From: Methanocaldococcus fervens AG86
GTDB taxonomy: Archaea > AGJL01 > Methanococci > Methanococcales > Methanocaldococcaceae
Assembly: GCF_000023985.1 (NCBI RefSeq)
Contig: NC_013156.1
Coordinates: 298,363 to 362,362 of the forward strand
DNA: 64,000 bases
Reading direction: 5' to 3'
Part shown: one piece after another, positions 59,462-61,509 of the stretch
Layout: every line of letters begins with the position of its first letter
How positions within the stretch are numbered: the stretch's first letter is position 1
Notes under the pieces: model-generated
What the model saw: only the letters and a program-made list of their open reading frames with translations
The model's database searches: none
What the model was told of the DNA's origin: nothing
Program-made: the position numbers and the translations under genes

Positions 59462-60115
59462 ATGGACTTTGAAAATAAGAAATGTGAAATTTGTGGTAAA
59501 AAAGCAGAGATTTTTCTATTTGGGAAGTTTTTATGCAAAAATGAAAAATGCATTGAAGAGGCAAAAAAATTGAGTATGGCAAGACATAAGTTTAGAGTTG
59601 TTGCTGTTGGTTCTACAAACCCAGTAAAGATAGAGGCGGTTAAGGAAGGTTTTGAGAAGGTTTTAGGGGCTGTAGAAGTTATTGGGGTTGATGTGGATAG
59701 TAATGTCTCATCACACCCAATTGGCTTAGAGGAAACGTATTTGGGGGCTTTGAATAGGGCTAAAAATGCATTTGAAAAGGTTCAATGTTCTTATGGTGTT
59801 GGGATAGAGGCAGGTTTAATAGAGGTTGGGGGGCATTATATAGATATCCACGTATGTGTTGTGTTTGATGGAGTTAAAGAGACAGTAGGCTTATCTCAAG
59901 GCTTTGAATATCCAAAGATTGTTGCTGAAAATGTTTTGAAAGGTATTGAAGGGGGAAAGACAGCTGAAGAAATATCAGGTATTAAAGATATTGGAAAAAA
60001 TATTGGTTTGATTGGTTATTTAACTGACAACAACATAACAAGGAAAGATTTGTGTAGAGATAGTGTTATAATGGCATTAATTCCAAGAATGATGAAAAAC
60101 ATATATTTATATTAA
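59462..60115 (+). CDS. Inosine/xanthosine triphosphatase (DUF84/YjjX type) with zinc ribbon
   Basis: A 217-residue protein. A short zinc ribbon comes first (CEICGKKAEIF...CKNEKC, cysteines near 8, 11, 25 and 30), followed by the DUF84 NTPase domain: AVGSTNPVKIEAVKEGFEKVLG (about 49-70), VSSHPIGLEETYLGALNRAKNAF, YGVGIEAGLIEVGGHYIDIHVCVVFDG. The family clears deaminated purine triphosphates. GGAGGAATC precedes the ATG. The signal peptidase gene begins 12 bases after its stop. Confidence 0.87.
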   Translation: MDFENKKCEICGKKAEIFLFGKFLCKNEKCIEEAKKLSMARHKFRVVAVGSTNPVKIEAVKEGFEKVLGAVEVIGVDVDSNVSSHPIGLEETYLGALNRAKNAFEKVQCSYGVGIEAGLIEVGGHYIDIHVCVVFDGVKETVGLSQGFEYPKIVAENVLKGIEGGKTAEEISGIKDIGKNIGLIGYLTDNNITRKDLCRDSVIMALIPRMMKNIYLY

Positions 60116-60127
60116 AGAGGTGGAATT

Positions 60128-60772
60128 ATTAATCTAAAAATAAGTAAAAAGGATGTAGTTGAATGGATAATATTTTTAATTGTTTTAATTTTAATTTGGA
60201 GCCATGTAAATGTTGTTGTATCTAACAGTATGTATCCTATTATGAAGAGAGGAGATTTGGTTGTAGTTGAAAATGCAGGATTTGAATTCAACCCACAAAA
60301 TGTTGATGTTGGAGATATTGTAGTTTATAAAGCTCACTGGCCTCATTATCACATAATATCCAATAATAAAACCTTGTACATATTTAAGGAAGGGGATGCT
60401 AAAGATATACAAATAAGAGTTTTGGGAGAGCTAAAAACAGATAAAGGAGTTTATAAAATATTAGAGGCAGAGATTACAGAAAGCCCTACAAGGCCTGTGA
60501 TACATAGAGTTATTGATAAGGTTGAGTATAATAATAAAACCTACTTTATTATAAAAGGAGATAATAACAAAATTCATGATCCAGAGCTTGTTTCAGTTAA
60601 TCAAATAAAGAAAAGAGTTATAACTATAAATGGGTATCCTTTAGTAATCCCATATATTGGATATTTATCAATATTCGTTAAAGAATACTGGTATTTGGTA
60701 ATTTTGTTTATAATAATTTATTATGCATACGATTATATTAGAGAAGGGAAAAATGAAAAAAGTAATACCTAG
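60128..60772 (+). CDS. Type I signal peptidase, probable ATT start codon
   Basis: A ~214-residue membrane peptidase that removes signal peptides outside the cell membrane. The catalytic Ser lies in SNSMYP (S34 counted from the ATT), with H126 (PVIHRVID) and D145/D151 (KGDNNKIHDPE) as the archaeal Ser-His-Asp group. The first ATG in frame (60230) is directly after the catalytic Ser and would lose both it and the N-terminal span (WIIFLIVLILIW). Upstream to the stop at 60113 there is no ATG, GTG or TTG in frame. A strong GAGGTGGAATT site ends just before ATT 60128, which I take as start. A C-terminal span lies near 186-202. Confidence 0.8.
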   Translation: MNLKISKKDVVEWIIFLIVLILIWSHVNVVVSNSMYPIMKRGDLVVVENAGFEFNPQNVDVGDIVVYKAHWPHYHIISNNKTLYIFKEGDAKDIQIRVLGELKTDKGVYKILEAEITESPTRPVIHRVIDKVEYNNKTYFIIKGDNNKIHDPELVSVNQIKKRVITINGYPLVIPYIGYLSIFVKEYWYLVILFIIIYYAYDYIREGKNEKSNT

Positions 60773-60897
60773 GGACAAAGTCCTGTTGATGTATCTTAGA
60801 GCAGAGATTCACTATGTTAATTCCAACTGTATCTAAGAGGCATTACTCCCTTACGGAAGTAATGCATCCGTTTTAATGAAACTTTTACAAAAGTTTC
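60773..60897. repeat. Palindromic element F between signal peptidase and secreted-protein genes
   Basis: The core 60834-60897 is an inverted copy of the family: TAAGAGG, then GCATTACT-(loop)-AGTAATGC, ATCCGTTTTAAT, and a terminal hairpin GAAACTTTT-AC-AAAAGTTTC at 60878-60897. A small GGAC-AAA-GTCC stem (60773-60783) and TATCTTAGA...TCTAAGAGG arms lie to its left. The terminal hairpin touches the GGTGAG ribosome binding site (60898-60903) of the next gene. Confidence 0.75.
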
Positions 60898-60906
60898 GGT
60901 GAGAAG

Positions 60907-61509
60907 ATGAAAAAGCTCCTGTTAATTTTTGGAATACTCGTATTGATAACCTCAACCTCCATGTGTATCAGCCACAATAATTTAAATGACTTAAAAAAGA
61001 GCGTAGTGGTTGAGGTTAATGGAACTCCTGTAGAGATTCCGTTAAGGGCAACAGTTGGCGAAGCAAAAGACGTGAAGTTGATAAACACAACTGACGATGA
61101 GATTTACAACTATTACCGCTCAAAGATGTTGATTTACATATACGGGAATATGAGTTTAAAACCAGCTGAAGGTGGGGTAGCAATAGTTGATTTGGTAACA
61201 AAATTAAAATGGTTCAACCAATTTTACCCTCACAACATAGTTGTTGAGCTAGAGAGAAATAATTCAACTGTAACTGTGGAAAGTTTCTTTGCAAATGGAA
61301 AACGCTCAACAGATAAACTTAAAATAAACGAGAGTGAATATTTAATGAACAACAATAAAACAATGGTTATAAAGATTATAAAAACCCAAAACAATGCAAC
61401 AATAACAAAAATAAACAATACATTTATAATTGAAGGAAATTCTTTAGAGGAGTTGGATAAAGCAGAAACAAGGTTCGTAATAGCTTTATTTAAGGGTAGT
61501 GTAAGCTAA
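60907..61509 (+). CDS. Secreted or lipoprotein-like protein of unknown function
   Basis: A 200-residue protein with a signal sequence (KKLLLIFGILVLITSTSMCIS); a Cys near residue 20 could be a lipid site, although the preceding residues are a poor lipobox. The exported part has about eight N-x-S/T sites for N-glycosylation (for example NGT, NTT, NMS, NNST, NKT and NAT). No family recognised. It follows the signal peptidase gene through element F. The 3' end of the gene (around 61465-61492) is repeated at about 61771-61797 beyond element G, where it reads TRFVIALFRSNML and a stop, so the present C-terminus may be a product of that insertion. Confidence 0.7.
   Translation: MKKLLLIFGILVLITSTSMCISHNNLNDLKKSVVVEVNGTPVEIPLRATVGEAKDVKLINTTDDEIYNYYRSKMLIYIYGNMSLKPAEGGVAIVDLVTKLKWFNQFYPHNIVVELERNNSTVTVESFFANGKRSTDKLKINESEYLMNNNKTMVIKIIKTQNNATITKINNTFIIEGNSLEELDKAETRFVIALFKGSVS

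Follow-up and report, generated by a model that had tools for sequence, protein, structure and literature searches.

Probable AUU, AUC and AUA start codons in the signal peptidase gene and a few other genes of Methanococcales

Natural AUU Starts and Archaeal Signal Peptidases

A natural AUU start is known from infC, the IF3 gene of E. coli and other bacteria, where a codon mismatched in its third base is combined with a Shine-Dalgarno site, is kept in relatives and is expected to initiate weakly, as is also the case for the signal peptidase gene (sip) described here. The gene infC encodes the factor that polices AUU and is self-controlled, whereas sip encodes a membrane protease, the third base of the sip start varies among U, C and A, and archaeal initiation relies on aIF1, aIF1A and aIF2 and not on IF3. 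The likeness to infC holds for the codon and not for the circuit. In E. coli pcnB, which encodes poly(A) polymerase, an AUU start is thought to restrain a protein that is harmful in excess, and pcnB, although bacterial and a different gene, is in function the nearer parallel to sip.

The archaeal signal peptidase I of M. voltae and of Haloferax belongs to the same family as the sip product (TIGR02228), with Ser-His-Asp and an N-terminal membrane helix, and no description of an archaeal signal peptidase start as AUH (AUU, AUC or AUA, where H is U, C or A) was found in the open-access literature searched. The Ser52 numbering of the M. voltae enzyme fits a downstream TTG start. The TTG in question is missing in a close relative (L060), and the signal peptidases of Methanococcus voltae-like genomes (L022, L058-L060) carry ∼40 extra hydrophilic residues at the N-terminus.

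Across prokaryotes, AUU-type starts are regarded as near-absent. In a reconstruction of 36 groups, AUG starts were under purifying selection, the switch from AUG to AUU numbered 1 of 61,358, and stronger Shine-Dalgarno sites were found at non-AUG starts (PMC5622118). In archaea, non-canonical starts are disfavoured by aIF1 in vitro, according to work cited in two papers (PMC6237735; PMC8211752).

The Signal Peptidase Gene and Its Start

The window, i.e., the whole stretch of 64,000 nucleotides that was analysed, comes from a source genome (G000) that comprises 1,485,061 bases and, in addition, one small contig. The features of the sip region in the window, together with the aIF1 gene from elsewhere in the same genome, are as follows.

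59462..60115, + strand: NTPase_I-T (DUF84) gene, the upstream neighbour, with its stop just 5' of the Shine-Dalgarno site
60117..60122, + strand: Shine-Dalgarno site GAGGTG, with the GGTG core at 60119-60122, a full match to the 16S 3' end
60123..60127, + strand: five-base spacer GAATT, its length of 5 kept order-wide and its sequence variable
60128..60130, + strand: proposed start codon AUU, with AUU, AUC or AUA in 31/32 orthologues and AUG in 1/32
60128..60772, + strand: archaeal-type signal peptidase I (TIGR02228) of 214 residues, with the stop codon included, assigned from the family profile and the nearest solved structures
60227..60229, + strand: AGT codon of the catalytic Ser (residue 34 if the AUU is residue 1), abutting the first ATG and invariant in the sip alignment (A1)
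60230..60232, + strand: first in-frame ATG, unsuitable as a start, encoding the Met of SMYP
G000:C1:646635-646847: aIF1 gene (L103), start codon ATG

The sip protein scored 80 bits (cut-off 51.85) against TIGR02228, the NCBIfam profile for archaeal signal peptidase I; its Pfam Peptidase_S26 score of 21.6 was slightly under the cut-off of 22.9, and its nearest solved chains were the SEC11A and SEC11C subunits. Residues S38, H130, D149 and D155 (A1 numbering) are invariant, with the Ser lying within SxSM. Judged by these matches, the product is an archaeal type I signal peptidase, and its peptidase activity is predicted. After the TAA at 60113-60115, the sip frame reads AGA GGT GGA ATT(60125) ATT(60128) AAT CTA AAA ATA and encodes R G G I I N L K I S K K D V V E W, followed further on by S-M-Y-P, where the Ser codon at 60227-60229 specifies the invariant Ser of 'VSxSMxP'. 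No ATG, GTG, TTG or CTG occurs in this frame between the stop at 60113 and position 60230, and the ATG at 60230 is unusable as a start because a protein begun there would lack its membrane helix and catalytic Ser. An earlier note on this DNA had read 60113-60230 as a frame without ATG, GTG or TTG that nevertheless encodes a conserved N-terminal span and the catalytic Ser. This reading is confirmed, and the span contains the first membrane helix.

The sampled stretch contains the 16S 3' end of the source genome, GGATCACCTCC, and GAGGTG therefore pairs with it without a mismatch. In 460 kb of the source genome, the distance from GGTG to an in-frame ATG was 5 bases in 102/198 cases and 6 bases in 58/198, and no matching distance peak was seen for ATT after GGTG in the same 460 kb. 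The ATT at 60128 lies 5 bases past GGTG and the ATT at 60125 only 2 bases past it; having the spacing typical of ATG, the ATT at 60128 therefore occupies the place expected of an ATG.

Orthologues of sip were located in 34/36 genomes of the order and aligned on the conserved 'SHVNVVVSxSM' motif, which gave a start-codon table of 32 rows from five genera; the matches of a phylum-level search came from Methanococcales only. The start position is ATT in 18 rows, ATC in 11, ATA in 2 and ATG in 1 (n = 32), and GTG, TTG and CTG are found there in none of the 32. The usual leader is GGTG-N5-ATH, and most frames are free of ATG, GTG and TTG; the spacer has 6 bases in L012 and L024, GGAG-N5 replaces GGTG in three Methanococcus rows (L022, L059 and L060), and the lone ATG row reads AGGT-N6-ATG. 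In L003, L009, L028 and L032, a stop codon abuts GGT on its 5' side, so that no canonical start is possible there, and an in-frame TTG or GTG lies near the sip start in L012, L018, L019, L021, L022, L024 and L059, where alternative starts are possible. Over the 24 codons from the first helix to SMY and the first ATG, pS was 0.22-0.69 against a pN of 0.02-0.08 among 12 congeners, and this large excess of synonymous over replacement change means that the N-terminal codons are translated.

Translation of sip thus very probably starts at the AUU at 60128, and on the evidence of the alignments the AUH start is set by the Shine-Dalgarno site and maintained order-wide. The AUU start put forward in the earlier note was upheld, as its position, Shine-Dalgarno spacing and AUH identity are common to the whole order, and where the note had asked whether relatives have ATG at the same place, only one of the 32 does, the other 31 having AUH. 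In the proposed mechanism, pairing of GAGGTG with the 16S 3' end would bring the AUU, by its optimal distance of 5 bases, into the 30S P site, the initiator Met-tRNA would read the A and the U with the third-base mismatch tolerated, and the sip protein would begin with Met despite the AUU. Weak initiation at this codon would give a low, steady enzyme level, which may have a selective value, and the AUH arrangement, shared with few other genes, would have been inherited from the ancestor of Methanococcales. Since aIF1 disfavours non-AUG complexes, a weak start and a low peptidase level are to be expected, and the efficiency of the AUH start could be very low; low, constant expression of sip is a likely consequence of the AUU start, and the low expression suggested in the earlier note is plausible. 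What the comparison demonstrates is where the start codon lies, that it is AUH, how it is spaced, that the N-terminal region is translated and that such starts recur in other genes.

Downstream of sip, ∼137 bases (60770-60906) between it and the next gene belong to a dispersed repeat with 23 matches in the genome, which contains the hairpins GCATTACT..AGTAATGC and GAAACTTTTACAAAAGTTTC; these bases are absent in congeners where the two genes abut, and their insertion seems to have altered the sip C-terminus. The gene at 60907-61509 begins like one for a signal peptide and matches no Pfam family; it is the downstream neighbour of sip in Methanocaldococcus as well as in L029 and L030.

Other Genes With AUH Starts

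Further AUH starts were sought in a sample of 862 kb of the source genome and 1.2 Mb of a second genome (G003). A first survey covered 177 non-overlapping orthologue pairs of the two genomes and selected frames with at least 8 conserved residues 5' of every ATG, GTG and TTG in both; sip was its sole clear protein-coding case, the remaining matches being judged by eye as rRNA, antisense or leader. A second survey of 662 orthologue pairs, in which the Shine-Dalgarno register was scored, yielded the genes for RIO2, an HflX-like GTPase and DUF2209 plus weaker AUH cases. The AUH start is confined neither to sip nor to one species, as the relatives have AUH too and it recurs in RIO2, the HflX-like gene and DUF2209; the finding is wider than the single gene of that note.

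The RIO2 kinase gene (G000:C1:482173-483108, L180, compared with L181-L209) has a start without ATG, GTG or TTG, and its assignment rests on matches to PF09202 and PF01163. An AUA, AUC or AUU start stands in Shine-Dalgarno register in most rows and in most genera of the order. For example, the leader is AAGGAGGGGATAATC-ATA-ATT in the clade of the source genome and GGTG-N5-ATA in L191, L192 and L194, and the other genera mostly have GGTG-N5 followed by ATA, ATC or ATT; as exceptions, GTG is possible in L197 and L199, and the site is weak in the Methanococcus rows L206, L208 and L209. The HflX-like GTPase gene (PF13167/PF16360) lies at G000:C1:290428-291072 on the - strand (L253, compared across L253-L264) and begins with ATT or ATA in the majority of Methanocaldococcus genomes; in the source genome, an ATG stands directly 5' of the ATT. 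Similarly, the DUF2209 gene (G000:C1:376038-376430, L104, compared with L105-L117) reads GGTGAT-(ACG/AGG/AAG)-ATT in several congeners versus GGTGAT/GAG-ATG-ATT in others, and where ATG is replaced by ACG, AGG or AAG, the alignment makes ATT or ATA, 5 bases past GGTG, the likely start. Less certain AUH starts belong to a kinase-like gene with GGTG-N7-ATY in the jannaschii clade and to a membrane protein with a signal-peptide-looking start, GGTG-N6-ATH and a GTG in frame.

As a control, conserved columns in good Shine-Dalgarno register were taken with any codon and six pairs were inspected. An ordinary ATG lay a few codons downstream in 5/6, and the sixth was a short, probably antisense frame with TTG only; unlike those five, sip, RIO2 and the kinase-like gene are without a nearby downstream ATG. 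The strong Shine-Dalgarno sites at the AUH genes fit the pattern reported for non-AUG starts (PMC5622118). No account of an order-wide set of AUH starts in archaea, or of AUH starts in Methanococcales, was found in the open-access library searched.

Alternative Readings and Implications

The chance is slightly below even that Methanococcales keep a defined minor class of genes on AUH starts with Shine-Dalgarno sites in register, selected to limit or co-regulate low-abundance proteins; this class would comprise sip, RIO2, the HflX-like gene, DUF2209 and others and make up very roughly 1% of the sampled genes. It is also quite possible, if somewhat short of even, that the AUH start has no selective value, the ancestral G having been lost, the strong Shine-Dalgarno site compensating and the third base drifting. 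Such drift agrees with the variable third base, as the start codon has undergone at least 10 changes among ATT, ATC, ATA and ATG on the sip tree, and with the absence of the double mismatches GUH and UUH, which simple pairing predicts. With G at ∼9% of the fourfold sites of the source genome, one G in ten changes would be expected (P of at most 1 = 0.78); active avoidance of G in the third base was set aside as unprovable, given the low share of G at fourfold sites and the small number of changes, ten. What speaks against a start without value is the purifying selection on AUG and the switch to AUU in only 1 of 61,358 (PMC5622118), since if AUG were far better, one would hardly expect sip and RIO2 alike to have kept AUH in five genera, and also the third-base C in 11/32 sip rows compared with 8.5% at fourfold sites, few of these rows being independent. 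That the AUH start acts as a sensor, with translation following aIF1 activity or growth state as infC follows IF3, is unlikely. In bacteria the AUU of infC is a known target of IF3, in vitro aIF1 works against complexes on non-AUG codons, and RIO2 and the HflX-like protein belong to ribosome-linked families, but the AUH genes have no clear common regulon and the aIF1 gene of the source genome begins with ATG, so that no feedback loop is visible. The parallel drawn in the earlier note to infC, a fidelity factor controlling its own gene, therefore fails at this point.

The remaining readings concern sip itself. Initiation at the GTG at 60120 in another frame (GTG GAA TTA TTA ATC TAA) with a subsequent frameshift into the peptidase is very improbable: most of the genus has a GTG mini-frame that ends in an early stop, but other genera do not keep it, L030 and L025 having no early stop and L032 and L029 only 2-3 codons; L022, L059 and L060 are without GGTG, no slippery heptamer was seen, and differences among congeners in the overlap are mostly synonymous in the peptidase frame and not in the GTG frame. 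This frameshift was rejected as contradicted by the comparison. A sequencing error, a pseudogene or a true start at the ATG at 60230 would account for nothing beyond the missing canonical start and can practically be dismissed; the error, which the earlier note had named as a way to refute its AUU start, is ruled out, and a pseudogene is opposed, by AUH in 31/32 genomes of five genera, with MAGs and L015 (Methanocaldococcus sp. SG1) among them, and the ATG is opposed by the low pN/pS 5' of 60230 and by the loss of the catalytic Ser and membrane anchor. Readthrough from the DUF84 gene upstream, or translational coupling to it, was discarded as a general cause, as that gene is unmatched beside sip in several relatives.

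Natural AUU starts in bacteria, such as that of infC, were already known; if true, the class of AUH-started genes in Methanococcales would be a conserved, order-wide usage not described for archaea. Gene callers restricted to ATG, GTG and TTG would miss or truncate AUH proteins, and the sip product would lose its active site. The genes sip, RIO2 and others like them would be natural test genes for the fidelity of aIF1. An export enzyme and a ribosome-maturation kinase have both kept AUH throughout an archaeal order, which implies that archaeal initiation can use AUH reliably.
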